Source: a virus. From it: a DNA stretch of 25,749 nt. Shown piece after piece: positions 3,742 to 17,678 of the stretch; position 1 is the first letter of the stretch, and each line of letters opens with the position of its first letter. A model generated the notes under the pieces. The model saw only the letters and a program-made list of their open reading frames with translations. It did not search any database and was not told the origin of the DNA. The stretch covers positions 1 through 25,749 of the IMG/VR virus record IMGVR_UViG_3300027963_000302; one strand, 5' to 3'. The translations under genes and the position numbers were made by a program.

Positions 3742-5052
3742 TTATCCTCCTGGGTCAAATCCGGCCATGACAGGGTCGTGTACCACCATCATTTCCTGAA
3801 GTGACTTCCAAGTTGGACGTTCTATCTGGAAAGTCAAGCCCAGCCCGATATTTGAGCTACTTAGGCACAAGGCAAGCGCGTCAGCCCTATCCGGTGATGC
3901 AAGCCCCCTAGCCCGCATGGAGTCCTTGGATTCCACGCCAAGCTTGCCCTTGCTGTTTGTAATGGTGCGCCTACAGGTTAGCTGTGCGGTCAGGTCTTCG
4001 TCATCCGGCAGAATGATCTCTGCATCCTCGATCTTCTTTGCCATCCCGTACCACATCTCGGCTGACCTGTTGGTATAGGCGTTGCCGTCATAAGCAGATC
4101 CGCCAAAGTTAACCCTATTGACAGTCCATCCGGCCTCCGCCAATGCATCACACATGACCATGCCCATGCCACTAGCGTCCGCGTATATATTGCTTGGCTC
4201 AAGTCCAGCCTTCTTAAACTCCACGATAAATCTGCCTACTGCCGACATCGTATCCTTTTCGCGCCATGCAATCATGGGCAGGATCTTGTTGCCATCGCTA
4301 ATGCAAATGACGTTCTGATCCCCACCTGCGGCAAAGTCTACGCCTGCAATCCGTACCCCAGGCTTGAAGCGAGGAGGGGCATTATAGCAGTTTTGGAGTT
4401 GTGACAGGTTAATGACCAAGCTTTCAGCCCCTATGTCCACAAACTCACCATAGATCATGGAGCGGGTCAATGGGTGCTTTTCGCCGTAACGCTGGATGAT
4501 CTCGTCAATCTGCTCTTGGGTGATATGTGGGCAGTCAAACGCCGTTACTGCGTGCTTCTTCCACATAGCCGATTCCTTTGTAAAAGCTCGGTAGAAGGCT
4601 CCGCTGGTTCCTCCAGGGCTTGAGGCAATAAGCAGGCGGGTTGGTTGGCAACGGCTGATGGCTTCAAACAGGGGGTCGGATACAGTTTTGGCCTCGTCAA
4701 CCACCATGAGCAAGGGCGCAGTCTTGTGGTTCTCTGCGTGCCATCCTTCCGCCCTTCCAGGGTCTGTGGCCGAATAACCTATGATACGGCTAGTGTTGCC
4801 GTTAGGGTGGAGGTATCTGATTTCACCGGATGTGACCTCCCATCCTGACCCTATCTTGGCTACTAAGGAACGCAGGTTAGGCCAAAGCTGACTTTCAACC
4901 TGCCGGAATACGCCAGCAGTTGTTACAGCTATAGAACGCTGGAACATGAAACAATGCCATAACAGTATTGAAGCTATTATAGTAGAAGTCTTTCCAGATC
5001 CGTTGGCGGCACGCAAGGCTACTCTAGCCTGTTGTGGCTCCATATCTTTCAA
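3742..5052 (-). CDS. Terminase large subunit (packaging ATPase-nuclease)
   Basis: The DNA-packaging motor. The ATPase domain has Walker A ANGSGKT at residues 16-22, Walker B LMVVDE at 115-120 and a coupling motif SSPGGTSG at 144-151. The nuclease domain has an RNase H-like acidic set: GVDFAAGGDQN (Asp239), YADASGMG (Asp292) and SPDRADA (Asp388 and Asp391). The coordinates begin at a TTG, the only standard start in frame. However, the coding sequence clearly continues upstream with LKLYDWQRKVL, a terminase-like N-terminus (see the separate entry). The true protein is probably about 45-60 residues longer. The small subunit gene lies immediately upstream and the holin-like gene starts four bases after the stop. 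Confidence 0.93.
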   Translation of the reverse strand: MKDMEPQQARVALRAANGSGKTSTIIASILLWHCFMFQRSIAVTTAGVFRQVESQLWPNLRSLVAKIGSGWEVTSGEIRYLHPNGNTSRIIGYSATDPGRAEGWHAENHKTAPLLMVVDEAKTVSDPLFEAISRCQPTRLLIASSPGGTSGAFYRAFTKESAMWKKHAVTAFDCPHITQEQIDEIIQRYGEKHPLTRSMIYGEFVDIGAESLVINLSQLQNCYNAPPRFKPGVRIAGVDFAAGGDQNVICISDGNKILPMIAWREKDTMSAVGRFIVEFKKAGLEPSNIYADASGMGMVMCDALAEAGWTVNRVNFGGSAYDGNAYTNRSAEMWYGMAKKIEDAEIILPDDEDLTAQLTCRRTITNSKGKLGVESKDSMRARGLASPDRADALALCLSSSNIGLGLTFQIERPTWKSLQEMMVVHDPVMAGFDPGG

Positions 5053-5224
5053 AACCTTACGTTGCCAATCGTAAAGTTTTAGTCCTAGAACATGTTGCGC
5101 AAAGCCAATTGGTTTGGCTATCTCTGCAACAATCTCTTCTGGCGACTTTTGCTTGGATTTAGGAGGCTTCGTAAGATAGACCTCTTTTTATTTTGTGGCG
5201 CAAACACTTAGGGGGTATTAACAT
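5053..5224 (-). other. Terminase large subunit 5' extension without a usable start codon
   Basis: The large-terminase frame stays open from 5052 back to a TAA at 5190-5188. It encodes a plausible N-terminus including AKPIGFAQHVLGLKLYDWQ. In this stretch there is no ATG, GTG or TTG. Two starts lie just upstream in other frames: ATG at 5224, inside the end of the small-subunit gene, and GTG at 5207, right after its stop. A one-base change at the A5 run (minus strand, 5185-5189) would join either to the terminase frame. Possible explanations are a sequencing or assembly indel, ribosomal frameshifting on A-AAG, or a non-standard start. ACG at 5172 has GAGG eight bases before it. Confidence 0.6.
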
Positions 5225-5936
5225 TTTTCTCGGGGGGTTGGGGGCTGGCGGTAGGGGTGTCGTGTCCCCTGGCTAACCTCTTGCGTCTCATGGGCTTATG
5301 ACGTTTTCTTTTCTCCGGAACGACCGCCGGTTCCTGCGGTTGGGCATTTGTCGCACAATGATTATTGTCTTCACTAGGTTTGAGATGTTGCACGTCAACG
5401 ATTTCCGCCTCAATTTCTCTAACGTCTTTGGGTTCAATCGCTTGCGGATTCTTTGAGTTGTAACCCGCAAGAATCTGCGCCAAACCGGGCGAAAGGCCAT
5501 GCTGGATTTCTTGCCTAACATCCACACGGGCAGGGGCTTGGGTGTATCCGAAAGACCTTTCTAGCATCCATGCCCGCGCTTGCCATGATTTCTCCCCCGC
5601 ATTGTTTATTGATTCAAGAAGGTTGACTTCTAGTTCTCTTCGCGCCTTTTTTATAGCGGACGCAAACGTCTCGTTTCTTTGTGTCCATGACTTCAAAGTA
5701 GATGGAGGGATGCCTAGAATCTCCCCTGCCTTTTCCCAAGTAAGTCCGCGCCGGATGTAGTCACAAACCTTTTGTTGGATTTCTTTTGTTAGCTTGGGTT
5801 CCGCCGCCGCCGTTCCAGATACTACTTGTAAACTTTTTTCGTCTTTTGTTTCGCAAGTATCCGGCAAACCGGGCGGAGGTGTTTTCGTTTCCCCGTTTGA
5901 AATTAGATGGGGTTCGGAATTGGAAGGGTTTTTCAT
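5208..5936 (-). CDS. Terminase small subunit
   Basis: A 242-residue protein immediately upstream of the large terminase. Terminase small subunits recognise the packaging site and regulate the large subunit. Residues about 49-85 form a helix-turn-helix (IRRGLTWEKAGEILGIPPST followed by LKSWTQRNETF), then a charged helix and a conserved-looking AWMLERSFGY near 122. The first 45 residues are Pro/Thr/Glu-rich. The last 70 are low-complexity and very basic (EKRKRHKPMRRKRLAR), probably disordered DNA-binding tails. ATG at 5936 has no good ribosome binding site. It is the first gene of the minus-strand packaging operon, so its promoter should lie in the gap before the divergent plus-strand island. 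Confidence 0.8.
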   Translation of the reverse strand: MKNPSNSEPHLISNGETKTPPPGLPDTCETKDEKSLQVVSGTAAAEPKLTKEIQQKVCDYIRRGLTWEKAGEILGIPPSTLKSWTQRNETFASAIKKARRELEVNLLESINNAGEKSWQARAWMLERSFGYTQAPARVDVRQEIQHGLSPGLAQILAGYNSKNPQAIEPKDVREIEAEIVDVQHLKPSEDNNHCATNAQPQEPAVVPEKRKRHKPMRRKRLARGHDTPTASPQPPEKNVNTP

Positions 5937-6146
5937 GTTTTGTTTGCACGTTTGACCTGGATGATGGTTTTGCTGCCAAACCTTAAAACACGGGTTGCGG
6001 GTTCAATCCCCAAAAAAAAATCGTTCCAGAATGCCCCTAGAAATCGTTTTGAGAAACCGGATGGATAGGCCATACCCCCCTAAAATAGCATGCCGGAGGG
6101 GTAAAAAAAGGGTGACACATAGTAGGGAAAGGCGCATTCTCTACCT
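5937..6146. other. Divergent intergenic region between packaging operon and plus-strand island
   Basis: About 210 bases separate two divergent genes, so promoters in both directions are expected here. I see no confident -35/-10 pair. Visible structure includes a five-base hairpin GGTTT/AAACC (5966-5982), an A9 run at 6012-6020, and an inverted repeat TACCCC/GGGGTA (6073-6078 and 6098-6103) followed by an A7 run. A tRNA T-arm-like word GGGTTCAATCCC is present, but no complete tRNA folds around it. Confidence 0.4.
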
Positions 6147-7208
6147 ATGGAAAACACACAAGGCAGAGCGGAAGCGGTATCCGCCAAAGAATACCGCGAA
6201 ATGTTAAAGGAACAGATCGCCCATAAGGTTTTGAAAAGCGCTTATCAGGACTATTTATGGGATGCCGACATCGTTCACAAACGTAGCATGACTATCCGGA
6301 GCGCCATGACCGACGAAGAACGTCATGAAATCCGTTGCGCCCGCAACATGATGCGGAGAGCGCGCCAGATCATGCAAAAGAACAATGCTCCGGAACGTGA
6401 AGTGGACATGAAGGAAAAATACATGAAGGCATTCTCCGGAAACCTTGTTTCGGTTGAGTTGGAATGCGTGTTCCATCGTGACTATCCCGTACCCTCAGAG
6501 AAAACCTTGGGAAGCATGACGGAAGTTGTCGGGGATGGTTCCGTGCGTTACGAAGACCATTCCGGAGATTCCGGAGAGGGAGCGGAAGTAAAGGTGACAA
6601 TGCGTAGCGAAAACCCGCTCCGGTTGAAATCCGTAGTGGATAAGATTAATCAGGCCGGAGGTGAAGTGAACACGACATGCGGAATGCATATCCACCTAGA
6701 TCAGCGCGGAGTATCAAAGGTGACTGCGACAAAACGGGCGAAAAGGTTGGTGAAATGTTTGCCCGCTCTTATGAAGATGGTTCCGCAATCGCGTTTGAAT
6801 AATCGGTTCTGCCAACAAAACACGATGATTCCGAAAACCGGAACATATCGTTTCAGCAGTAACCGATATATGATGATCAATTATCTTCCGGCCTACCGGA
6901 AACACCAGACTTGCGAAGTCCGTTTACATGGCGGAACATTGGATTTCTGGAAGGTTTTGGGTTGGATTAAACTTTGCCAATTCATCCAAAATTGTTCAGA
7001 GGTTGACGTAGTAGCGAAACAAGCTTCCGGATACTACGCAAACGTCACAATCGAAAACTTAATCCGCATGGAAACTCTTCCGGAATCTATTAGGAATTAC
7101 GTTTGGCGCAGGTTCCGGCAATTTAATCAGGCGCAAGCTAACACGCTCCGCGAAAAGCTAATCGCGGAAAACCTTATTCATCTCACCGACGGTATGGCAA
7201 TCAGCTAA
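6147..7208 (+). CDS. Amidoligase_2-family enzyme (carboxylate-amine ligase-like)
   Basis: Predicted ATP-dependent ligase of the glutamine-synthetase/GCS-like fold that joins an amine to a carboxylate; the substrate is unknown. The first 95 residues are a charged helical region. The catalytic core has SVELEC at 102-107 (metal/ATP-binding Glu pair), GDGSV at 129-133, EVKVTMR at 147-153, CGMHIHLD at 178-185 and EVRLHGGTLDFWK at 257-269. These match the EhE, DGS, ExxxP-like, GxHhH and EhR signature set of the family. It is the first gene of the island, with a class II glutamine amidotransferase 17 bases downstream, a pairing known from bacterial and phage amidoligase loci. Together they could ligate or amidate a peptide or cell-wall component. 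The assignment is strong; the role is inference. Confidence 0.85.
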   Translation: MENTQGRAEAVSAKEYREMLKEQIAHKVLKSAYQDYLWDADIVHKRSMTIRSAMTDEERHEIRCARNMMRRARQIMQKNNAPEREVDMKEKYMKAFSGNLVSVELECVFHRDYPVPSEKTLGSMTEVVGDGSVRYEDHSGDSGEGAEVKVTMRSENPLRLKSVVDKINQAGGEVNTTCGMHIHLDQRGVSKVTATKRAKRLVKCLPALMKMVPQSRLNNRFCQQNTMIPKTGTYRFSSNRYMMINYLPAYRKHQTCEVRLHGGTLDFWKVLGWIKLCQFIQNCSEVDVVAKQASGYYANVTIENLIRMETLPESIRNYVWRRFRQFNQAQANTLREKLIAENLIHLTDGMAIS

Positions 7209-7225
7209 AGAAAGGAAAACACAAT

Positions 7226-8269
7226 ATGTGCAAACTACTTGGATTCTCGGTATCACAAAAAGTTGGCGAAGAAAAATTGGCGGAGATCATCCAAACGTGT
7301 CGCGATCTCCTCAAAGATCAAAAAGACGGGTTTGGGTACGCTCTATCCGGAGGGGATATTAAAGGTATCACCTCCCTGCGCCTCACTACGGGTTCCCTGC
7401 TTGGATACGGGTATCCGGAGGCAGGTGAATGGGCGGACGTTGTAAAGGATGCCCCCTTCGAAGCGCGCGGGAAGATTTCCCCTTGCACCGGAGGGGTATT
7501 CCACGGGCGCACGTCGACCAATTCCCTAGGGGTTGAGAACACACACCCTTTTGTGAATGAAGACCTTGCCTTGGTTCACAATGGGATTGTGGATTACACC
7601 GGAAAGAAGCGCAAAAAACGCGGAGTATGTGACAGCGAAGACCTATTTAATACCTTCACAATTGGGAAGGGTTGGAGGGAGTTTCACAAGCATTACACCG
7701 GATACGCTGGTTTGCTTATCCTCCGGAAGGGCGGGACGTTGACCATCTACCGCGACGCATCCCCCAACCTTCATATTTGCAAGGTTGAGGGTGGAATCGT
7801 TGTGGGAACGACGCTCCATGACGTGACGAAGCTTGCAAGCTTGTTTGACAAGGTTCCCAACGCACCGTGGATGCTCAAACCGGATGTCGCGACGACTATC
7901 CATGAAGGGAAGATAATCGACAAAGAATCAGTCAAGGCCATGCGCTCCAGATCGTTTGGCGCGAAGGATTCTCTGTCTCTTTACTCTTCCGGAGGTTACT
8001 CCGGATATGGTTCATATTCGACCGGAAGCGCAACGAAGACGAAGGAAAAGGAGTTGTTTCCCGATTATGAAGCGCCGTCCGGTGTGGATGAAACGTCGGA
8101 AGCTTGGGAAGATGGATACCAAGCGGGTTACGACGACGGGCTGAAGGGCTACACCCATACGATCTTAAGCGCAGATCGTAACTACAAGGCCGGATACAAT
8201 GAGGGATACAAAGACGGCGAATTGGAAAAGAACGTCCCAAGCGAAGGCATGGGAGAGGTTGTCCTATGA
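7226..8269 (+). CDS. Class II glutamine amidotransferase (Ntn hydrolase)
   Basis: Predicted to release ammonia from glutamine for a partner ligase or transferase. The protein starts MCKLLGF, placing the nucleophile Cys at position 2 so that Met removal exposes it, as the N-terminal-nucleophile family requires. Family motifs include DGFGYAL (about 34-40), HGRTSTNSLGVENTHPF (about 93-109) and LVHNGIVDY (about 115-123). The catalytic domain ends near 235. A Ser/Tyr/Gly-rich linker follows, then two or three repeats of a Gly-Tyr pattern (DGYQAGYDDG, AGYNEGYKDG) of unknown function. It resembles GATase_4/YafJ-type enzymes. Start ATG has AAAGGA upstream. It follows the amidoligase gene closely and overlaps the next gene by ATGA, so the genes are co-transcribed. 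Confidence 0.88.
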   Translation: MCKLLGFSVSQKVGEEKLAEIIQTCRDLLKDQKDGFGYALSGGDIKGITSLRLTTGSLLGYGYPEAGEWADVVKDAPFEARGKISPCTGGVFHGRTSTNSLGVENTHPFVNEDLALVHNGIVDYTGKKRKKRGVCDSEDLFNTFTIGKGWREFHKHYTGYAGLLILRKGGTLTIYRDASPNLHICKVEGGIVVGTTLHDVTKLASLFDKVPNAPWMLKPDVATTIHEGKIIDKESVKAMRSRSFGAKDSLSLYSSGGYSGYGSYSTGSATKTKEKELFPDYEAPSGVDETSEAWEDGYQAGYDDGLKGYTHTILSADRNYKAGYNEGYKDGELEKNVPSEGMGEVVL

Positions 8270-8412
8270 AGTTCACCTATTACATAGTGAACGAAAAAAA
8301 TATCGTTCTTGCGTCCGGATTCAGCACGCCGAAACGTGCTTTGGGTTGGATAATCCGGAACGGCGGAGAATGGCGAACTTGGTATGTAGTTAAAAAGGAG
8401 ATTCAGTCATGA
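8266..8412 (+). CDS. Unknown 48-residue protein
   Basis: The ATG at 8266 overlaps the amidotransferase stop (ATGA) and the TGA at 8412 overlaps the next start, so this frame is bracketed by coupled genes. It starts MKFTYYIVNEKNIVLASGFS and ends basic (VVKKEIQS), with two Trp in the middle (GW and EWRTW). It looks like a small alpha/beta protein of the kind phages carry in early clusters. No family was recognised. Confidence 0.6.
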   Translation: MKFTYYIVNEKNIVLASGFSTPKRALGWIIRNGGEWRTWYVVKKEIQS

Positions 8413-8498
8413 ACATAGCAGTCATATTCACGCACGGGCTTTTGATAGGTGCGGGTCTTGTCGCGTTTGTTTGGATGTTTTGGGATAACAAAAAATAA
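8409..8498 (+). CDS. Predicted 29-residue membrane peptide
   Basis: ATG at 8409 overlaps the upstream stop (ATGA). The peptide begins MNIAVIFTHGLLIGAGLVAF, continues VWMFW, and ends DNKK. This gives one hydrophobic segment of about 22 residues with a short charged C-terminal tail. It would be a single-span inner-membrane miniprotein. Role unknown. It could influence the host membrane or be an accessory of the amidoligase island. Confidence 0.5.
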   Translation: MNIAVIFTHGLLIGAGLVAFVWMFWDNKK

Positions 8499-8503
8499 CG
8501 TCC

Positions 8504-8542
8504 AACCTTGTCGCCCCCTTTAGCACGGGGGGCGCAAAGGTT
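8504..8542 (+). terminator. Strong stem-loop between small genes (attenuator or partial terminator)
   Basis: Bases 8512-8518 (CGCCCCC) pair with 8528-8534 (GGGGGCG). The flanks AACCTTG and CAAAGGTT extend the stem with one bulge, leaving a loop of about nine bases. No U-run follows; instead there is a purine-rich AAAAGAAAAG tract and a good ribosome binding site for the next gene. It could reduce read-through, protect the 3' end of upstream mRNA, or simply be an intercistronic structure. Confidence 0.4.
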
Positions 8543-8594
8543 TGACCCGATAGGGTTGACCGAAAAGAAAAGAAAAGAAAAGGAGACACACACA

Positions 8595-8852
8595 ATGAGC
8601 ATGGAGCCAGCAGGGTTCGAACATGAAAGCGGGGTTTGGATAACAAACCCATTCTTATCCGTTTGCGCCCGATTCCAAGTGAATCCGGAGACGTACTACG
8701 GAAAGACGCAAAAGGAGTTGTCCGAAATCTACGGGGAGAAGTATTTCTCCTTCGTTTCGGATATGACGAAACTCCTTTTGGAGACGATAGAATGGAACAG
8801 CGCAGCAAACCCGGTTCGCCAGGGCGAACGAAAGAAAAAGGAGGAAAAATAA
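8595..8852 (+). CDS. Unknown 85-residue protein
   Basis: The ATG at 8595 is chosen because AGGAG lies nine bases upstream. The frame is open further back but would run through the stem-loop. The protein begins MSMEPAGFEHESGVWITNPF, has a Tyr-rich middle (ETYYGKTQKELSEIYGEKYF) and a basic Lys/Glu tail. No membrane segment or known motif. It is the fifth gene of the plus-strand island and probably co-transcribed with the next ones. Confidence 0.6.
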   Translation: MSMEPAGFEHESGVWITNPFLSVCARFQVNPETYYGKTQKELSEIYGEKYFSFVSDMTKLLLETIEWNSAANPVRQGERKKKEEK

Positions 8853-8853
8853 T

Positions 8854-9063
8854 ATGGAAGCAGAAATGAAACTACGGGAAGAAAACCTTAAACTTCTCAT
8901 GAAATTATTCAACGCGGGTAAGATGAAACTTGAAACGGACAAAGATGGCTTTGTTTTCCGCTGTTCCGGCGGAACGTATCCGGTTGAAATCTATGAAGAC
9001 GGGCATTGGGACGGGTCTTTGACCCAATCTCTCTGCCATATGGAAAGGGAGGAAAAGGCATGA
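8854..9063 (+). CDS. Unknown 69-residue protein
   Basis: ATG at 8854 follows AAGGAGG at good spacing; the Shine-Dalgarno sequence overlaps the end of the previous gene. The protein has an N-terminal amphipathic helix (MEAEMKLREENLKLLMKLFN). A likely beta-rich part follows (GFVFRCSGGTYPVEIYEDGH). It overlaps the following gene by ATGA. No family was recognised. Confidence 0.6.
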   Translation: MEAEMKLREENLKLLMKLFNAGKMKLETDKDGFVFRCSGGTYPVEIYEDGHWDGSLTQSLCHMEREEKA

Positions 9064-9350
9064 AATACAAAAAAACTAGAATTGACAAATGGGGTTGGCG
9101 GTTTGCCTGCAACCCGTGGGAGCCAGACTTGCGAGACACGCGCCCGATTGGGAAACGGGGTCTCAATTCTTCCACGGGAATATGTGCGGTATGTGGTGAA
9201 GATGCGAAATGGTCTTTCCACTATGTTCCGTCAACTTCGGTTCATCGCATGATGCAACCTAAGGCCAGCCATGTCGCAGTATGCGAAAACAAAAAATGTG
9301 CGGTTGCTTTGGAGAATGTTGGGTTCACCGGATGCGGGTGCGGAGGTTAA
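9060..9350 (+). CDS. Small Cys-rich protein, possible zinc-binding
   Basis: The ATG at 9060 lies in an ATGA overlap; the frame is open upstream but that start is shadowed by the previous gene. The 96-residue protein has a basic, Trp-rich N-terminus (KYKKTRIDKWGWRFACNPW), then GICAVCGEDAKWSFHYV and VCENKKC, and ends TGCGCGG. A CxxC pair plus a CxxxxC pair fits a zinc ribbon or treble-clef-like site. The WSFHYVP segment resembles small phage HNH-like or zinc-finger proteins, but no HNH catalytic set is visible. Confidence 0.55.
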   Translation: MKYKKTRIDKWGWRFACNPWEPDLRDTRPIGKRGLNSSTGICAVCGEDAKWSFHYVPSTSVHRMMQPKASHVAVCENKKCAVALENVGFTGCGCGG

Positions 9351-9354
9351 GCGC

Positions 9355-9531
9355 ATGAAACATATTTATATATTTCATGAAGACAAACCCAACGGAGGGA
9401 TGATCGTGGAATGCGGAGCGTGTGAAAAACTCTTCGACATTCCGAACGCGATAGAATCAGGGTTCAAACTAGAACACACCTGCCCGCATTGTGAAGCCTT
9501 GGTTCACTATCCGGAGGGAGCGTCATGGTAA
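9355..9531 (+). CDS. Small zinc-ribbon-like protein (58 aa)
   Basis: ATG at 9355 is preceded by GGAGG nine bases upstream, overlapping the end of the preceding gene. The protein has MIVECGACEKLFDIP and, further on, HTCPHCEALVHYP. These two CxxC knuckles about 25 residues apart are typical of a rubredoxin-like or zinc-ribbon fold. It is the last gene of the island and is followed by a strong terminator. Such miniproteins often bind nucleic acid or host polymerase; no specific role can be assigned. Confidence 0.65.
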   Translation: MKHIYIFHEDKPNGGMIVECGACEKLFDIPNAIESGFKLEHTCPHCEALVHYPEGASW

Positions 9532-9552
9532 AATAGCAGGACGTATCCCAAG

Positions 9553-9592
9553 TAAACCGGAAGAGGTTCAAAACCTTTTCCGGTTTATTTTT
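9553..9592 (+). terminator. Rho-independent terminator ending the plus-strand island
   Basis: A 16-base-pair stem: TAAACCGGAAGAGGTT at 9553-9568 pairs with AACCTTTTCCGGTTTA at 9572-9587 with one G-U pair, around a three-base loop. It is followed by a T-rich tract (ATTTTT). It lies 21 bases after the last stop of the island. Confidence 0.85.
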
Positions 9593-9762
9593 GCCCACGT
9601 CGCCCGGTAGCGCAGCATGGCGCGAAACTTTTTTGACGTTTTGTTTTGCTTTATTTATCCCAATAAACTCTTCTTGCGTGTGGATATTCCAGGTGTGTGG
9701 ATATTTCACATGTGTGGATATTTCACATGTATGAACTATTTGACCGGCGGGGAACCCCTATT
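9593..9762. other. Untranscribed-looking gap, candidate replication origin
   Basis: This gap lies between the plus-strand island terminator and the opposing terminator of the minus-strand replication operon. No gene is visible. It contains an AT-rich stretch (about 9627-9671, many T runs) directly beside three DnaA-box-like repeats. It is near the primase and helicase genes. An AT-rich unwinding element plus iterated initiator sites between convergent transcription units is a usual origin layout. No experiment or homology supports this directly. Confidence 0.4.
9677..9727 (+). repeat. Three 17-bp direct repeats containing DnaA-box-like TGTGGATAT
   Basis: Copies 2 and 3 (9694-9710 and 9711-9727) are identical: TGTGTGGATATTTCACA. 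Copy 1 (9677-9693) matches at 13 of 17 positions. The core TGTGGATAT occurs at 9679, 9696 and 9713 with an exact 17-base period. It differs by one base from the reverse complement of the DnaA box TTATCCACA. Each full unit also has TGTG/CACA ends, so a dimeric repressor site is an alternative. Confidence 0.75.
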
Positions 9763-9801
9763 AAAAAATCCCAAAAAAGCCCTATAAGGGGGAATTTGGG
9801 A
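9763..9801 (-). terminator. Rho-independent terminator of the minus-strand replication operon
   Basis: Read on the minus strand, TCCCAAA (9801-9795) pairs with TTTGGGA (9775-9769). An inner CCCT/AGGG pairing sits in the loop, and a run of six T follows (9768-9763). It lies downstream of the last gene of the operon and faces the plus-strand terminator. Confidence 0.6.
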
Positions 9802-9825
9802 AATGCCCTATAAGGGGGAATTTGG
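9779..9825. repeat. Tandem duplicate containing GCCCTATAAGGGGG
   Basis: Two copies of a 21-base unit, at 9779-9799 and 9805-9825, with a 26-base period. Each has CCCT-ATA-AGGG dyad symmetry followed by GGAATTTGG. The first copy forms the core of the minus-strand terminator; the second lies just upstream of it in the direction of transcription. This may be a duplicated terminator hairpin or a protein-binding pair. Confidence 0.7.
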
Positions 9826-9857
9826 AAACTTGAAAAACCAAACTTTTTTTGAGTTTT

Positions 9858-10028
9858 CTATTTACCAATTGAGCAGCAGCAAGCCCGGTTGCCTAATGGC
9901 CTTAACATAGCCACCCTATACGCTTCGGTATGCTTATTTTGGCTACCCTCTACTTGCTTGGTGGTAATGACGCGTTCTAGGGGCTTTTCTGTTCGATTTT
10001 GAGGCATTTTAACGACCTTCTTTTTCAT
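9858..10028 (-). CDS. Unknown small basic protein (56 aa), last gene of replication operon
   Basis: ATG at 10028 overlaps the previous stop (TAATG) and has GGGGGATGAG upstream. The protein opens MKKKVVKMPQNRTEKPLERV, is basic, and ends NRACCCSIGK with three consecutive Cys. No family was recognised. The opposing terminator follows about 60 bases downstream of the stop. The coupling and ribosome binding site argue for a real gene despite its small size. Confidence 0.55.
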   Translation of the reverse strand: MKKKVVKMPQNRTEKPLERVITTKQVEGSQNKHTEAYRVAMLRPLGNRACCCSIGK

Positions 10029-10360
10029 TACTCATCCCCCTGTGGGCATTCATCATGCAGTTTCTTTAAGTTAACCTGATGCCTGGAAAAGAACGAAGCA
10101 AGCCTGTCCATAGATTCGGATATGTCTTTCCACTCGGCCTCAAATACCTCATAGGAGCAATTGTGATCCATGTCATCTACAAGCTGGCCTAGTAGCCTTA
10201 CAACAGCGTGTAGCTGTGCATTCTCAAGCCTTAATAGGTGTATAAACCTACAAGCACGCTTGTAACGCTCTTTATCCGTATCCATCTGTGTGCCTAGTGT
10301 ATCACACCCTTCCCCAATCGGTAACCACACGGCCTCGTCCGGCTTGTCGTTGTTGTTCAT
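10028..10360 (-). CDS. Unknown 110-residue helical protein
   Basis: Starts MNNNDKPDEAVWLPIGEGCD. Residues about 30-60 form a leucine-rich helix (RFIHLLRLENAQLHAVVRLL). A second helical part follows and it ends acidic. The start ATG lacks a Shine-Dalgarno sequence, but a promoter-like sequence and a large hairpin occur in the 161 bases upstream. The protein may be expressed separately from the helicase gene before it. No known domain is visible. Confidence 0.6.
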   Translation of the reverse strand: MNNNDKPDEAVWLPIGEGCDTLGTQMDTDKERYKRACRFIHLLRLENAQLHAVVRLLGQLVDDMDHNCSYEVFEAEWKDISESMDRLASFFSRHQVNLKKLHDECPQGDE

Positions 10361-12598: not shown

Positions 12599-12701
12599 TC
12601 ACCTCGCGCATCTGCATCTGAACCCGCTCGCAGTTGTTGTAGATATACCGAGCGCGCTCGATATTTTCCTCAAACTTCTTGATCACGTCTTGCTTTGTCA
12701 T
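12552..12701 (-). CDS. Small coiled-coil protein (49 aa)
   Basis: Starts MTKQDVIKKFEENIERARYI, then YNNCERVQMQMREVIAQLDE, and ends in Lys. It is almost entirely charged helix with heptad-like spacing. ATG at 12701 overlaps the stop of the glycosyltransferase gene (ATGA), with AAAGGAGACAAG upstream. It may be a small dimerising protein; there is no known family. Confidence 0.6.
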   Translation of the reverse strand: MTKQDVIKKFEENIERARYIYNNCERVQMQMREVIAQLDEQLKNFKDKA

Positions 12702-13819
12702 TTCTTGTCTCCTTTTCCGAAATCTAGGTCAACAGCCTTCTTCGATGCAAGCACAATATCTTCCGCCGTGATATTGCGAAGCGCGTTGCAAAAGTACTGC
12801 GTACCCTTGGTCTTGTTGGTTGCGTCCTTACACTTCGCCTGTGGCAATCCTGCATGAGGACGGCACGGCGAGTGCGGGCATACTTCCGGCTTAAACACCG
12901 ATATGTTGAGCGGATAATATGTCATCCTGTCTTGCGGGTCGTAGCTACCCCACAAAGACACGCAGGGTGTATTAAGCCCCGCGGCGATATGGTTGACGCT
13001 ACTATCCGGAGCCACCACAAAGTCTGCGTTGGCAACGACAGGGAATAGCGACCTGATTGCCTTGGTTGTGTTAAACAGGTCAATCACGCGGGGATGATCG
13101 ACAGCAAAGTTGTTGCTGTTGTCCATCCCTATGATTACGGCGTGATGCTCCGGAAAAGCCTCCAGCAACGCCAGCACCGCGTCCTGACCCATCCGAGGAG
13201 GATAGGTTCTGGTGGGACCGGAAGACGAAACGTGGTAGGCAAAGAATTTCTCAGGCAAAGGCCATTTGCCCAACGCCTTCAGTTCTTCGTGGTCTGGTTC
13301 AATCAGGTGAAGCATCGGCTTGCAATACTTCGCCATATTCTTCTCATCCCACACGCCCATCCACTCGTAGATCCGTTTGTAACAGTTCCCACCACCCGTC
13401 CCGAGCTTGGTCTCCCCAACCTGCCCGCTGAACAAGTCATCGGTAGGAAGGTGTGCATCATAGCTGTCCCAAGCCTCAAGCGTGCATGGCAGGGGATAGA
13501 GCTTTGCACCTAGTCCGGCATAAAGCGGAAGATTCCTGGCGGGGGCATAAACATCGACAACCCCACCCGACTCCTGCACCAAGTAGTTCACGAACGCCGT
13601 TGCGATCACGGCATCGCCAATCGCTCCTGCGCGGTAGACGGCAGTAGCCCCGCCAATCGACCTGCCCTTATAGTACGGCTTGATCTTGTGGGGGCATGGT
13701 ATTGAATCCGACCATATACCGCCGGTTAGTTCGTCCGGAAGCATATATGTGTTGCGGACGTGAAGTAGATTGTCATCTACCTTGTGGATTGAGTTTGTAT
13801 TATTAGTCCATAGCTTCAT
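12698..13819 (-). CDS. Glycosyltransferase family 9 (heptosyltransferase-like)
   Basis: Predicted to transfer a sugar from a nucleotide donor. The N-terminal Rossmann domain has RAGAIGDAVIATAFVNYL (about 63-80), the GT9 GDxhhxTP-like loop. The C-terminal domain has ADFVVAPDSSVNHIAAGL and PCVSLWG, the classic GT9 donor-site motif of ADP-heptose:LPS heptosyltransferases. The N-terminal 50 residues and the Cys-rich end (CPHSPCRPHAGLPQAKC) are extra. Length 373 fits the family. ATG at 13819 is coupled to the upstream frame. In a phage it could glycosylate modified DNA, virion proteins or host LPS; the acceptor cannot be read from sequence. Confidence 0.85.
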   Translation of the reverse strand: MKLWTNNTNSIHKVDDNLLHVRNTYMLPDELTGGIWSDSIPCPHKIKPYYKGRSIGGATAVYRAGAIGDAVIATAFVNYLVQESGGVVDVYAPARNLPLYAGLGAKLYPLPCTLEAWDSYDAHLPTDDLFSGQVGETKLGTGGGNCYKRIYEWMGVWDEKNMAKYCKPMLHLIEPDHEELKALGKWPLPEKFFAYHVSSSGPTRTYPPRMGQDAVLALLEAFPEHHAVIIGMDNSNNFAVDHPRVIDLFNTTKAIRSLFPVVANADFVVAPDSSVNHIAAGLNTPCVSLWGSYDPQDRMTYYPLNISVFKPEVCPHSPCRPHAGLPQAKCKDATNKTKGTQYFCNALRNITAEDIVLASKKAVDLDFGKGDKK

Positions 13820-14105
13820 TTAGTTCTCCTTATGTTTGGCATGGTATCAACGAAGATGGGCATTTGACCAGCGAAATTATTCTGAATGATGTTGTAGTAC
13901 GCAAAGTCAATTGCGTCCTCCTGCTCCACTTGTTTGTCTTCATCAGGGACTTGACAATCCATTCCACGGAATAGACAGCGTAAAACTTTCCGCCTATGTC
14001 TGTTACTCCAAGCAGAGCATCGTCAAGCCCATTGATTACATAGGTTGACGCATCATCCGGCATCAATTCGACTATTGGGTGAGTCTTTCCACTTCGTTTA
14101 TACAT
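13816..14105 (-). pseudogene. Small phage protein split by a -1 frameshift
   Basis: Frame A starts at 14105 and encodes NGLDDALLGVTDIGGKFYAV, then YSVEWIVKSLM. After that it becomes Thr/Ser/Arg-rich and stops at 13830. One frame back (-1), from about 13950, the sequence reads EDKQVEQEDAIDFAYYNII, then NNFAGQMPIFV, and stops at 13816 in an ATGA overlap with the glycosyltransferase start. Joined, they resemble a common phage hypothetical protein with LDDALxGV, AVY, ILM, EEAxEYxxFN and TPIFV blocks. Either one base is inserted or deleted near 13936-13950, or the gene uses frameshifting. The second part also has its own ATG at 13962. Function unknown. Confidence 0.6.
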
Positions 14106-15199
14106 CTGATGATTTCCCTAGCGACTTGCGGTACAATTGCGTTTCCGAGGGACTTAAGTCTAGCCACCCGATTGGGTACCCCATGAGCCACTCGACCCAC
14201 GTCGGGTTCAGTGAGCCAGATTGCTTTTCCTGATTGTCTGTGTGCTGTACGGCCACATCCAGCGTGTCCTTTGATACCTTCCCGTTCCGTATCCTCCCGC
14301 CCTTGTAGCCACCCTTCCCATCCCTGCTCGATGGGGTCGGCCACATCTTGACTGCCGTCTGTAGGGTTGCCCCCCACTTGGTTCCGTTGGCTGATGTCCT
14401 CGTCTTCCCGTCCTCCGACACGCTCCAGCTCTTGGCTCCGGTGTGCGCTCCCCTCGGACAGGCTGATGGAGTCGGCCACATGTTCGGTTCCGGACACGCC
14501 CTGATCTGATCCTGTAGGTTCAGAGTGTGTCCCTGCCTCTCCTCCAGGGTTGAGGCATTCTTCCAGTTGTTTGCGTGAGGAGTCCTCCACATCATGTTCG
14601 GGGGTTGATAATAAACCTGCTCCCGAAGGGTTGAGTGGGTCGTGCGACCCTTGCGATTGGAATCGTACTGCTTCTTCAACGCCTCTTCGCTCCGCACCGG
14701 AAGGCTGTCCATTGTGTTTGGAGTGAGCCACAATCCAGCATCTGTCGCGCCTGTGCGATGCGTCGACGGAGCAAGCTGGAATAATGAGCGTTTCGACTTC
14801 GTAATCTTCTGCTTCCAAGTCAGAATGCACTTGGTCGAGTGCCATGTTGACGATTCCAGCAACATTCTCACCAATGATCCAATCCGGCTTTGCTTCGCGT
14901 ATAACTCGGAGCATTTCCGGCCAGAGATAGCGGTTATCATCCTTGCCTCTTCGCTCCCCGGCAACGCTGAATGGCTGGCAGGGGAATCCGCCTGTGAGAA
15001 GAGAGACTTTTGGATATAGGTTGCCTCGTACTTGGCGGATGTCTTCGATGATCGGGACTTCCGGCCAATGCTTTTTGAGGACTGCTTGGCAGAATTTGTC
15101 CTGTTCGCAGAACCCGACTGTTTTGTATCCGTTCCACTTTGCGGCAAGGGCGAAGCCACCGATTCCAGAAAAAAGATCGAGGTGTGTTTTTTCATTCAC
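14072..15199 (-). CDS. C5 cytosine DNA methyltransferase (Dcm-like)
   Basis: Methylates cytosine at carbon 5 in a specific DNA site, probably protecting phage DNA from host restriction. Motif I is LFSGIGGF (9-16). Motif IV is GGFPCQPFS (70-78) with catalytic Cys74. Motif VI is ENV (111-113), and motif VIII-like SHRRDRCWIVA lies at 148-158. After a long variable target-recognition region, motif X is LGNAIVPQVA (351-360). The variable region is rich in Gly, Ser and Glu and contains repeated VADS/VADP/VEDS words. The start is GTG at 15199, with AAGGAG ten bases upstream. Almost the entire gene is overlapped by another long frame on the same strand. No restriction endonuclease partner is visible nearby. 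Confidence 0.9.
   Translation of the reverse strand: MNEKTHLDLFSGIGGFALAAKWNGYKTVGFCEQDKFCQAVLKKHWPEVPIIEDIRQVRGNLYPKVSLLTGGFPCQPFSVAGERRGKDDNRYLWPEMLRVIREAKPDWIIGENVAGIVNMALDQVHSDLEAEDYEVETLIIPACSVDASHRRDRCWIVAHSKHNGQPSGAERRGVEEAVRFQSQGSHDPLNPSGAGLLSTPEHDVEDSSRKQLEECLNPGGEAGTHSEPTGSDQGVSGTEHVADSISLSEGSAHRSQELERVGGREDEDISQRNQVGGNPTDGSQDVADPIEQGWEGWLQGREDTEREGIKGHAGCGRTAHRQSGKAIWLTEPDVGRVAHGVPNRVARLKSLGNAIVPQVAREIIRCINEVERLTQ
14098..15195 (-). CDS. Overprinted 365-residue frame within the cytosine methyltransferase gene
   Basis: Starts at ATG 15195, four bases after the methyltransferase GTG, in an ATGA overlap with the preceding gene. It stays open for 365 codons. It is Ser/Thr/Lys/Trp-rich. 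It contains LTWKQKITKSKRSLFQLAPS (about residues 123-142), then WxTP words at four places (WLTPN, WRTPH, WPTPSA, WPTPSS) and LNPTWVEWLMGYPIGW at 329-344. These phrases recur in phage proteins annotated as hypothetical or methyltransferase-associated. Here they are the shifted reading of methylase motif VIII and motif X. It may be a real overprinted gene or a frame kept open by constrained DNA. No catalytic motif is recognised. Confidence 0.45.
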   Translation of the reverse strand: MKKHTSIFFLESVASPLPQSGTDTKQSGSANRTNSAKQSSKSIGRKSRSSKTSAKYEATYIQKSLFSQADSPASHSALPGSEEARMITAISGRKCSELYAKQSRIGSLVRMLLESSTWHSTKCILTWKQKITKSKRSLFQLAPSTHRTGATDAGLWLTPNTMDSLPVRSEEALKKQYDSNRKGRTTHSTLREQVYYQPPNMMWRTPHANNWKNASTLEERQGHTLNLQDQIRACPEPNMWPTPSACPRGAHTGAKSWSVSEDGKTRTSANGTKWGATLQTAVKMWPTPSSRDGKGGYKGGRIRNGKVSKDTLDVAVQHTDNQEKQSGSLNPTWVEWLMGYPIGWLDLSPSETQLYRKSLGKSSDV

Positions 15200-15371
15200 T
15201 TTCTATTAACTCCTTTGCTACTAAAGCTCCGGCATCAACCAAAGCTATGATTTGAATAATATCAATCGCATGTCCGTGGTTTGCGCGATCCCTCTCAACG
15301 GCCAGCTTGTTGCGGGCATTGAGAAGGATGTCGCGCATCCACTTGAGTCGTTCTTTTGCCTCCACGTTCAT
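15192..15371 (-). CDS. Unknown 59-residue helical protein
   Basis: ATG at 15371 shares a base with the upstream stop (TAATG). The stop at 15192 overlaps the ATG of the overprinted frame in the methyltransferase locus. The protein is helical: MNVEAKERLKWMRDILLNAR, a charged middle, and a hydrophobic C-terminal part (AIDIIQIIALVDAGALVA) ending KELIESE. The AAGGAG near its end doubles as the ribosome binding site for the methyltransferase. Unknown function. Confidence 0.6.
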   Translation of the reverse strand: MNVEAKERLKWMRDILLNARNKLAVERDRANHGHAIDIIQIIALVDAGALVAKELIESE

Positions 15372-15547
15372 TACATTCCTGACTTCATGCGAAACTTGCG
15401 AGGCTTGCTCTTTCCTGCGGCAGCAAGAGAGATGGCAACCATCTGCTTGTGAGAGCGGGGAACCCCACCGGCACCACGAGCCTTGCCCTTCTTCTTATTG
15501 TCCATCGCCAGTTCATGCATGTTCTTCGATACGTCTTTGCCTAGCAT
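15371..15547 (-). CDS. Small basic protein (58 aa), DUF6496-like
   Basis: Begins MLGKDVSKNMHELAMDNKKK and continues GKARGAGGVPRSHKQMVAIS then LAAAGKSKPRK. A short helix, a Gly/Lys/Ser linker and an R-x-H-K-Q-x-x-A-I-x-L helix resemble small basic phage proteins of the DUF6496 type. That is an impression from memory, not a search. ATG at 15547 has AAGGAG upstream. It may bind nucleic acid. Confidence 0.6.
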   Translation of the reverse strand: MLGKDVSKNMHELAMDNKKKGKARGAGGVPRSHKQMVAISLAAAGKSKPRKFRMKSGM

Positions 15548-15559
15548 ATTCAGTTCTCC

Positions 15560-15784
15560 TTATATGTTGTAATAGGGATTAGGCACTTCTGGTGCTTTTA
15601 CCCCGAAGCTTGGATTTTCGCATCTGCGACAATCGCGCAGGTCAAAATCAAGAATCTCGCCGTGATTAAGCATTATCGTAAATATCTTGTTATGATCTAA
15701 TCCGTAGTCAGTCACCAGGAATGCAAGCCCTTCACCTTTTGGAGTCATCATCCACAACTCCGGCTTTAGTTGAATTATCTCCAT
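15560..15784 (-). CDS. Unknown 74-residue protein
   Basis: Start ATG at 15784 overlaps the end of the oxygenase gene by ten bases; a GTP-rich upstream extension is the oxygenase tail in another frame and was excluded. The protein reads MEIIQLKPELWMMTPKGEGL, a beta-rich middle (AFLVTDYGLDHNKIFTIML), then DLRDCRRCENPSFG. The C-terminal CRRC plus PNPYYNI is typical of small phage proteins encoded next to modification enzymes. The fold looks like a small beta-barrel. No family assigned. Confidence 0.6.
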   Translation of the reverse strand: MEIIQLKPELWMMTPKGEGLAFLVTDYGLDHNKIFTIMLNHGEILDFDLRDCRRCENPSFGVKAPEVPNPYYNI

Positions 15785-16341
15785 GCTGGTCCTGTAAACC
15801 AAGCTACCAGCACCCACCTAGTACCCCATATCGGCGCACGGGCGCGATGCTCTAGGTAGGATGGGAACCAACATCCGGCTCCCTGTTCGCGAATAAACTG
15901 CACGTTGTCGATGTCGGCCTTGATCTGCAATCCACCACCCAAATATTCAGAAGGATCGGATAGGTTGACTACTGCAGTAAGTTTCCTGTCGCTTCCGTTG
16001 TACAGGTCATAATGCCACATAAATCTCTGGAATGCGTTGTACTTTAGGATTTGTAACTGTTGCACTCCTGTAATATCAAATTTCCAATTCTCCTCGTTGA
16101 TAGCCCTATTAAGCTCATTCATAATGTTGTAGATCCATTTATGATGCTGGCTGTTTGGAACCCAGCATGACGAGCACGTTCTGGTGTATGATCTTTTTGT
16201 CGTTCCATCTTTGTTCATCACAGCTGCGCGCTTCATTCCTATAATATTTGCATCTTCCCGCAACATCATGCATTGCGCCGGAGTGAGAACATATCTGTCA
16301 ACCGCTGCGCTCATTAACTTCTGTATATATTTCTTTTCCAT
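15775..16341 (-). CDS. 2-oxoglutarate/Fe(II)-dependent oxygenase
   Basis: Predicted hydroxylase of the prolyl-4-hydroxylase/PKHD type. From ATG 16341 (188 aa), the iron ligands are His110 and Asp112 in FMWHYDLYNG and His165 in SYLEHRARAP. Arg175 (WGTRWVLVAW) is placed to bind 2-oxoglutarate. SDPSEYLGGGLQI forms the expected strand between them. The ATG at 16341 shares a base with the upstream stop (TAATG) and was chosen over an open upstream extension that runs across a membrane-protein gene. In phages such enzymes can modify bases, nucleotides, or protein side chains. The nearby glycosyltransferases raise the idea of hydroxylate-then-glycosylate modification. Confidence 0.8.
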   Translation of the reverse strand: MEKKYIQKLMSAAVDRYVLTPAQCMMLREDANIIGMKRAAVMNKDGTTKRSYTRTCSSCWVPNSQHHKWIYNIMNELNRAINEENWKFDITGVQQLQILKYNAFQRFMWHYDLYNGSDRKLTAVVNLSDPSEYLGGGLQIKADIDNVQFIREQGAGCWFPSYLEHRARAPIWGTRWVLVAWFTGPAWR

Positions 16342-16481
16342 TATTCTAATTCCTTTTTTATCCAGCAGAACAATGCATAAACACCAAACAATAGGAATGC
16401 GAGTAAAGATGCCAACAGGGACATGTAAAGCACAATCCAGCATATAGTCCAAGCGAAGTCTGCTAATGAAATAAGCAACAT
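16341..16481 (-). CDS. Small membrane protein (46 aa)
   Basis: ATG at 16481 to a TAA that overlaps the oxygenase start (TAATG). The protein is hydrophobic throughout: MLLISLADFAWTICWIVLYM then SLLASLLAFLLFGVYALFCW, ending IKKELE. It fits one long or two closely spaced transmembrane helices with a charged cytoplasmic tail. Its role is unknown; superinfection exclusion or lysis control are possibilities only. Confidence 0.6.
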   Translation of the reverse strand: MLLISLADFAWTICWIVLYMSLLASLLAFLLFGVYALFCWIKKELE

Positions 16482-16483
16482 CT

Positions 16484-16792
16484 TCAAGCACCAAAGACTC
16501 GCCTAATCAGCGTTTTGTTGTCAATCGGAATCCCAGCTGCTCTGCACCAGAACCCAACAATTCCGGTCTTAAAATCGTTTATTAGTTTGTATATTTGATG
16601 GATCTTCTTGTATTCATCGCAGTCACCAAGGTTTAGGTCTGAACCCATGTTCTTCCTTATTACCCTCATGCCATCAAGAATGCCCCTGCGTTGCAACAGC
16701 CTTACGTCATCAATCGCGCGCTTGGCCACCTCTCCAGCTAATTGCTGTAGCTTGTCATCGTAGTTACCCTTAACCAAGTGTGTTGATCTCAT
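16484..16792 (-). CDS. Unknown 102-residue protein
   Basis: ATG at 16792 overlaps the previous stop (TAATG). The protein opens MRSTHLVKGNYDDKLQQLAG and continues helical and basic (EVAKRAIDDVRLLQRRGILD). It then has an acidic stretch (LNLGDCDEYKKI) and a C-terminus with FWCRAAGIPID. No signal or membrane segment. No family was recognised. Confidence 0.6.
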   Translation of the reverse strand: MRSTHLVKGNYDDKLQQLAGEVAKRAIDDVRLLQRRGILDGMRVIRKNMGSDLNLGDCDEYKKIHQIYKLINDFKTGIVGFWCRAAGIPIDNKTLIRRVFGA

Positions 16793-17016
16793 TAATATTT
16801 TCTCTTTGTTTTCTTTTTATGTTGCTCAATCCATTTGGCATATTCGTTCCATAAATACGCGGCATCCTGCGCTTCTTCTTTCGTATCAAATATATCTGTA
16901 AGCGGAGGCAACCCGTTTGCTGGAACAGCACCCCAAAGGCGCGGGCCAATTGTGTATCCGGCTGTTGTATGAATGCGCCACTTACCACACTCGGCAACTA
17001 CCTTGACTGTGGTCAT
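16792..17016 (-). CDS. Unknown 74-residue protein
   Basis: ATG at 17016 overlaps the glycosyltransferase stop (ATGA). The protein reads MTTVKVVAECGKWRIHTTAG, then a Gly/Pro-rich loop and a C-terminal helix (TKEEAQDAAYLWNEYAKWIE) with a poly-Lys tail. The pattern of N-terminal beta strands and a helix beginning TKEEA is common in small phage proteins of the single-domain alpha/beta type. Function unknown. Confidence 0.6.
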   Translation of the reverse strand: MTTVKVVAECGKWRIHTTAGYTIGPRLWGAVPANGLPPLTDIFDTKEEAQDAAYLWNEYAKWIEQHKKKTKRKY

Positions 17017-17678
17017 CGACCAAGCTCCACAAGCTTGGCATCGTCAGACTTAATCTGTTCAATCAATTTAGGCATGTCTCCGGACTGCCCAGCGTAATGA
17101 ATGCAGTACGCATCTTTGTAGCGGTCTAGGCCAAAGTGCGACTCAACGCTGGTCATACAATTGTATGCGGGATCAAGTTCTTGTACCGGAACATTCCACA
17201 GGTGGACCATAATGTTCATCCAGGTCTGTTCGGCAAAATGGTTTGGCAGCAGTCCGAGTGGAGGCATCGACAGGACACCAACAGCCTTGGATGAGATCAC
17301 AAACACGCCTGTGTTGACGTAGAACCTGGGATCAATCTGCGCCCCAAATGCACTTGCCAGCTTGCCCATCTCATACTTGCGATCTAAGAACGCACCCTCA
17401 TCGAATGCGCAGAACATGTTTACTTCAGCACCCATGTCATCGCAGTCGTTTGCAATCAGAATATCCGAGTCAACAAACGTGATCTGCTCATATCCTTTCG
17501 TTGCCATGATGTTCCCAATTGCGGACTTGCTATACTGCACCGGCTCGACCAATGGTTTCTCAAGCGCAAGGAAATCAATCTTATGCCTCTGGCAGTAAGC
17601 CTCCATCCTTGGCCTTGTAAGATCCAAGACCTTCTTCCAATCATCCCCGAATGCCTGCGTAACTAATGCGCGCTTCAT
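17013..17678 (-). CDS. GT8-like glycosyltransferase (nucleotide-diphospho-sugar transferase)
   Basis: A GT-A-fold candidate. ITFVDSDILIANDC at 66-79 supplies the metal-binding DxD (Asp70/Asp72). FYVNTGVFVIS at 119-129 is the typical acceptor-side strand. AEQTWMNIMVH and AYCIHYAG near the C-terminus match the D/E-Q and HY/HF-G motifs of GT8-like enzymes. At 221 residues it is a minimal catalytic domain. It is coupled to genes on both sides by ATGA overlaps. It lies a few kilobases from a second, unrelated glycosyltransferase of family 9 and from an oxygenase, so a shared glycan or base-modification role is plausible but unproven. Confidence 0.7.
   Translation of the reverse strand: MKRALVTQAFGDDWKKVLDLTRPRMEAYCQRHKIDFLALEKPLVEPVQYSKSAIGNIMATKGYEQITFVDSDILIANDCDDMGAEVNMFCAFDEGAFLDRKYEMGKLASAFGAQIDPRFYVNTGVFVISSKAVGVLSMPPLGLLPNHFAEQTWMNIMVHLWNVPVQELDPAYNCMTSVESHFGLDRYKDAYCIHYAGQSGDMPKLIEQIKSDDAKLVELGR

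Follow-up and report, generated by a model that had tools for sequence, protein, structure and literature searches.

An amidoligase-amidotransferase pair as a probable payload of a variable phage cassette with a frame of two small genes and a structured RNA

The DNA analysed here (the window) is a stretch of 25,749 nucleotides, positions 1 to 25,749 of the IMG/VR virus record IMGVR_UViG_3300027963_000302, and the system in question is a cassette in which genes for an amidoligase (AmL) and a class II glutamine amidotransferase (GAT) are followed by six small open reading frames (ORFs), viz. s48, s29, s85, s69, s96 and s58 (Table 1). The explanation that we favour, with a probability of about 0.65, is that this is a variable payload cassette with a fixed frame made up of s48, s29 and a structured RNA, and that AmL-GAT is an interchangeable, glutamine-dependent amide- or peptide-ligase payload acting outside the small genes. 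The enzymes are a variant of a known phage module, and less expected than these is the frame with the structured RNA. All eight genes and a strong terminator are on the plus strand, the neighbouring genes on both sides are on the minus strand, and several ORFs of the small-gene run overlap as ATGA. This layout agrees with a preliminary description of the stretch, in which the two enzymes were placed next to each other, on the strand opposite to their neighbours and with a terminator of their own.

The evidence for swapping comes from a scan with the large terminase (TerL), which matched 207 contigs. The best 80 of the 207 were kept, and 53 of these together with the window span the region from the small terminase gene (TerS) to the next conserved gene, giving 54 loci. 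The locus counts are of contigs and not of independent events: there are near-identical contigs among them, the ORF calls are mechanical, and a small number of rare assignments could be spurious. AmL-GAT is present in 6 of the 54 loci of this lineage. Co-occurrence of the small genes with the pair, a check that had been proposed in the preliminary description, was observed in part: s29, s48 and s85 are found in 6/6, 4/6 and 2/6 of the loci with the pair, whereas a single further locus has s58 and no other locus has s69 or s96. However, s48 is also present in all 48 loci lacking the pair and s29 in 40 of these 48. Immediately before s48 (or before s29 in loci without a called s48) lies GAT in 6 loci. 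In 5 of the 54 loci no ORF was assigned to this position, and the remaining loci have ORFs of at least 16 further families there, many of them unknowns, which often overlap s48 by ATGA. Hence, an interpretation of the small genes as dedicated partners or substrates of AmL-GAT, as had been suggested, is not supported, since s48 and s29 occur mostly in loci without the pair. These two genes are the frame of the cassette and AmL-GAT is one payload among several, and the genes downstream of the RNA (s85, s69, s96 and s58) turn over freely. A narrow pattern scan had suggested that s29 is exclusive to AmL-GAT, but this was dropped after the TerL scan, which revealed many phages carrying s29 without the pair. 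The s29 product corresponds to the one-span membrane peptide noted before; it has a single hydrophobic span with an HG motif (hydrophobicity 2.28 over 19 aa), and its dN/dS of 0.05 (window versus L003) indicates that it is a real gene. The earlier mention of Cys-rich small proteins applies clearly to s96 and s58 only. At the GAT position, members of two uncharacterised phage families, DUF7227 and GP88, are present in the cassettes of L087, L089, L094, L114 and L146.

The third component of the frame, which the preliminary description missed, is a conserved structured RNA that begins in the window at the stop codon of s29 and directly follows s29 in most loci of the lineage (examples in relatives are L095:5518-5586 and L141:1797-1865). 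A covariance model detected this RNA in 54 of the 54 spanning loci, and about 20 of these have another, more diverged copy downstream. The idea that the RNA is exclusive to loci with the pair, which came from an exact-pattern search only, was dropped on this result. The RNA was not found in L013-L015, nor in an unrelated lineage carrying the pair. With 8 sequences compensatory changes were seen at 4 of the 19 base pairs, and with 28 sequences at 11 of the 19 (77 cells versus 22 in shuffles); covariation as high was reached in 0 of 500 shuffles, and slid controls gave far lower values. The outer helix (columns 3-7 with 46-50) covaries as well, at three pairs. An alternative helix, AGGU/ACCU, would compete with the inner helix CCUU/AAGG, and both can form; the former varies on one side only, so that covariation gives no proof of it, and a two-state switch between them is only a suggestion. 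The RNA was considered both as a known riboswitch and as a terminator. The first was dropped, as none of the 4227 Rfam families matched 8498-8566 at the gathering score or at a relaxed threshold, and the second because no T-run follows the hairpins. That the RNA represents a new regulatory class governing a swappable payload, possibly by helix switching, and that s48-s29-RNA is a standard acquisition frame for cargo like AmL-GAT, is a tentative proposal.

Unlike the small genes, the two enzymes are not separated from each other. Relatives of GAT with 50-91% identity were identified on 18 contigs in IMG/VR, with AmL directly upstream in 18/18; a separate scan with an AmL alignment recovered these contigs again and one more that is truncated at its end, and every contig with a complete AmL runs on into GAT. 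AmL and GAT are thus inseparable. Based on flanking genes, L003-L015 and L020 belong to the phage lineage of the window, whereas L016-L019 carry the pair but share none of the tested flanking genes with it, and AmL-GAT thus occurs in two or more phage backgrounds that are unrelated. None of the six small genes was found in L016-L019. Three of these contigs have a small membrane peptide with one span and a GxxxG pattern some 5 kb upstream of the pair, viz. L016 (3755-3856), L018 (4786-4890) and L019 (3531-3644).

Both enzyme assignments of the preliminary description (Amidoligase_2 and a Cys2 Ntn amidotransferase) held, and the active sites are intact, with catalytic residues that are invariant against Arthrobacter and Pseudomonas phage enzymes and, for AmL, additionally a Porphyromonas phage enzyme. 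AmL passes PF12224 (Amidoligase_2; 9e-12, 45.8 bits, cut-off 22), matches phrog_2443 (9e-19) and resembles phage amidoligases both in sequence and in structure; its residues D130, S132, H181, H183, N245, E257 and R259 are invariant against four distant phage enzymes, and C178 is likewise invariant against distant phage homologues. The predicted model of AmL has a glutamine-synthetase (GS) fold and aligns at Z about 10 with a plant glutamate-cysteine ligase and with YbdK, which, from later work, we take to be a glutamate-cysteine ligase too. The GAT sequence scores below the Pfam cut-off for GATase_6 (E 0.014, 15.8 bits versus 27) because it is too divergent, this cut-off being one of detection and not a property of the protein, and GATase_6 is matched by 12/12 aligned members, the best at 5e-5. 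Its model was assigned the class II fold by Foldseek (probability 1.0) and aligns with PurF, GlmS and EgtC at Z 16-18 over ~200 residues (rmsd ~3.5), and C2, R95, N119, G120 and D136 are invariant against distant phage homologues. No solved structure close in sequence to AmL or GAT was found.

The Gly-Tyr repeat tail of GAT, also noted before, is real; in the model it consists of two helices built on GYxxG (GX3) repeats, and its G/Y positions are invariant across both phage lineages that carry the pair. The tail is missing from the corresponding enzymes of phages Ottawa, Edmundo and UFV-P2, and, as judged from these sequences, this hairpin is what sets the GAT subfamily apart among known pairs. 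The tail alone scores against Yae1_N at E 6e-5 (23.1 bits, below the Pfam cut-off of 27.5), and this should not be interpreted as membership of the Yae1/Lto1 deca-GX3 family, as the similarity is limited to a glycine hairpin. Since Yae1-Lto1 are described as adaptors (PMC4523923), a docking role for the hairpin is only a fair guess. A relationship to the ribosome binder RMF (E 0.11, 13.1 bits versus a cut-off of 27.9) is not claimed here, as the structural Z of 6.4 was obtained on a hairpin of short length and, on inspection, the tail looks acidic.

The pair is a variant of a phage module already known from LUZ24-like, OM43 and Arthrobacter phages. In the LUZ24-like phages (ORF23 and ORF25 of UFV-P2) an Amidoligase_2 and a class II amidotransferase with the same catalytic residues occur in one operon; however, UFV-P2 has additional COOH-NH2 ligase, ATP-grasp and GGCT genes, its amidotransferase lacks the tail, and its similarity in sequence to the window enzymes is marginal. 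In the Arthrobacter phages Ottawa (genes 65/66) and Edmundo (97/98) an amidoligase about 27-30% identical to AmL is directly followed by the amidotransferase, but the small genes are different, the hairpin is lacking and the RNA was not found in the stretches searched. EgtA/EgtC of ergothioneine synthesis likewise combine a GS-fold ligase with a class II amidotransferase fold, a likeness at the level of predicted folds only, and no other ergothioneine gene was recognised in the window. MurT, an enzyme of the Mur ligase type, and GatD, a class I amidotransferase, are not homologous to AmL-GAT. Their likeness to it lies in the pairing of an ATP-using ligase with a glutaminase, employed by MurT-GatD for amidation of peptidoglycan (PMC3267633). 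For the OM43 marine phages, the likeness is by published description, viz. PF12224 and PF13522 genes in one phage genome (PMC10580990).

In the explanation that we favour, the variable payload cassette belongs to one phage lineage. It has TerS on one side and the replication gene region on the other, runs against the strand of its neighbours and ends in a terminator of its own, and the genes flanking the s48-s29-RNA frame are swapped among close relatives, the payload here being AmL and GAT. Class II amidotransferases free ammonia from glutamine by means of Cys2, and GS-fold amidoligases activate a carboxylate with ATP. From this family chemistry we infer that GAT would hydrolyse glutamine and hand on ammonia (or take off a gamma-glutamyl group), that AmL would activate a carboxylate with ATP, leading to an amide or isopeptide bond, and that the GX3 hairpin may serve as a docking surface. 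As none of the small genes is found in every locus with the pair, AmL-GAT probably acts on a substrate from outside the cassette and probably forms an amide bond on it; this target is most likely a host molecule or a phage-wide component, e.g. a cell-envelope peptide.

If AmL-GAT were instead part of a dedicated system modifying a small protein (s29 or a Cys-rich one) into a modified peptide, then its small genes should not be found so widely apart from it. It is true that s29 follows the pair, translationally coupled, in all loci of the lineage in which the contig reaches past GAT, and that s58 faintly resembles the amino-group carrier LysW (E 0.02). However, s48 and s29 are mostly without AmL-GAT, L016-L019 have the pair without any small gene, and s58, s69 and s96 are present in almost no relatives, which makes this reading very unlikely; s58 as a carrier protein was dropped in view of the same E value and its single relative. 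A different proposal concerns the chemistry, with AmL acting as a gamma-glutamyl (or other aminoacyl) ligase and GAT as the matching hydrolase, as in EgtA/EgtC, so that a glutamyl tag is cycled and no ammonia is added. The GAT model fits EgtC about as well as GlmS (Z 16.0 versus 16.2), the AmL model aligns with the two glutamate-cysteine ligases named above, and the residues binding the glutamate group are common to both activities. A synthetase directly beside a class II amidotransferase is, however, the usual arrangement for ammonia transfer, and no sequence feature separates the two activities; we regard glutamyl cycling as doubtful.

A narrower form of the payload explanation is that AmL-GAT alters the host envelope (an amide of peptidoglycan or O-antigen) and blocks superinfection, as proposed for phiEco32. 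Glycosyltransferase-like genes are also present on this phage, and two papers citing Iyer 2009 (PMC10580990, PMC11318856) put forward an envelope role for phage amidoligases. However, the cassette is without a cell-wall gene, and an experiment on this role was not found in the open literature searched; we consider it possible, as we do the peptide or cell-wall amide suggested in the preliminary description, without giving it preference.

Several observations count against the payload explanation as a whole. All of the closest relatives (TerL >=92%) have AmL-GAT, with no exchange at the finest scale, and the 54 contigs include near-identical phages. Further, s29 accompanies AmL-GAT in all members of the lineage having the pair, so that some probability must be left for a lineage-specific link between them. 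The confidence of the models is moderate (pLDDT 60 for GAT and 75 for AmL). GAT could also act as a gamma-glutamyl hydrolase like EgtC.

To our knowledge, phage amidoligase-amidotransferase pairs have long appeared in gene listings, with no substrate known for them. With the pair being interchangeable and the small genes not its partners, the search for this substrate narrows to outside the cassette. In addition, the conserved frame, which is shared by a large set of metagenomic phages and includes a covarying RNA of no described family, provides a marker for further cargo genes, and the RNA itself is a testable candidate for a regulatory RNA.

Table 1. Positions in the window of the cassette components and of neighbouring features
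Feature	Position	Strand	Evidence or occurrence
TerL, large terminase	3742-5052	-	nearest named records: Akkermansia phages, 35-39%
TerS, small terminase gene, flank before AmL	5208-5936	-	
Operon upstream region	5937..6146	+	alignment of 9 loci, repeat positions, promoter scan
AmL, Amidoligase_2, GS fold, 353 aa	6147-7208	+	Pfam, PHROG, fold, catalytic residues
GAT, class II (Ntn) glutamine amidotransferase, catalytic Cys2, 347 aa	7226-8269	+	fold, residues, GATase_6
GAT C-terminal GX3 (GYxxG) helical hairpin, residues 292-335	8099..8230	+	model, G/Y conservation
s48, small protein	8266-8412	+	52/54 loci
s29, 29-aa one-span membrane peptide	8409-8498	+	46/54 loci
Conserved structured RNA, ~65 nt, directly after s29	8498-8566	+	covariance model, compensatory changes
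s85, variable cassette gene	8595-8852	+	2/6 loci with the pair, 8/48 without
s69, variable small gene	8854-9063	+	no relative found in loci examined
s96, Cys-rich small protein (CxxC, CxxxxC)	9060-9350	+	no relative found in loci examined
s58, zinc-ribbon-like small protein	9355-9531	+	weak zinc-ribbon matches; one relative, L003, 78%
Intrinsic terminator at operon end	9550..9591	+	hairpin and T-run, -31 kcal/mol, z -7.0
Flank gene beyond cassette	10028-10360	-	

In the region upstream of AmL, the 3' half is kept across the lineage, and a promoter scan of 5937-6146 found no sigma-70-like promoter. Two copies of a direct repeat, AAATCGTT, are present there at 6018-6025 and 6041-6048, 23 bases apart, in a stretch conserved among close relatives, and they are a possible regulator site. 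The terminator hairpin recurs in the relatives L003, L005, L006 and L008, and, being near-symmetrical, it could conceivably act on both strands. Just beyond it, at 9690-9830, there are tandem-like repeats, GTGTGGATATTTCACATG and CCCTATAAGGGGGAATTTGG, which are a possible origin or operator. None of the eight cassette proteins matched a defence model in PADLOC.

With regard to the placement of the phage, the affinity of the TerL sequence hints weakly at a host among the Verrucomicrobiota; no amidoligase is annotated in the Akkermansia phage Chambord. Assignment of a bacterial host from prophage relatives was dropped, as there was a single weak match, to Blastococcus (29% over 141 residues). Further downstream, the minus-strand genes at 12698-17678 include those for a glycosyltransferase family 9 protein and a 2OG-Fe(II) oxygenase, and they possibly form a surface or DNA modification set.

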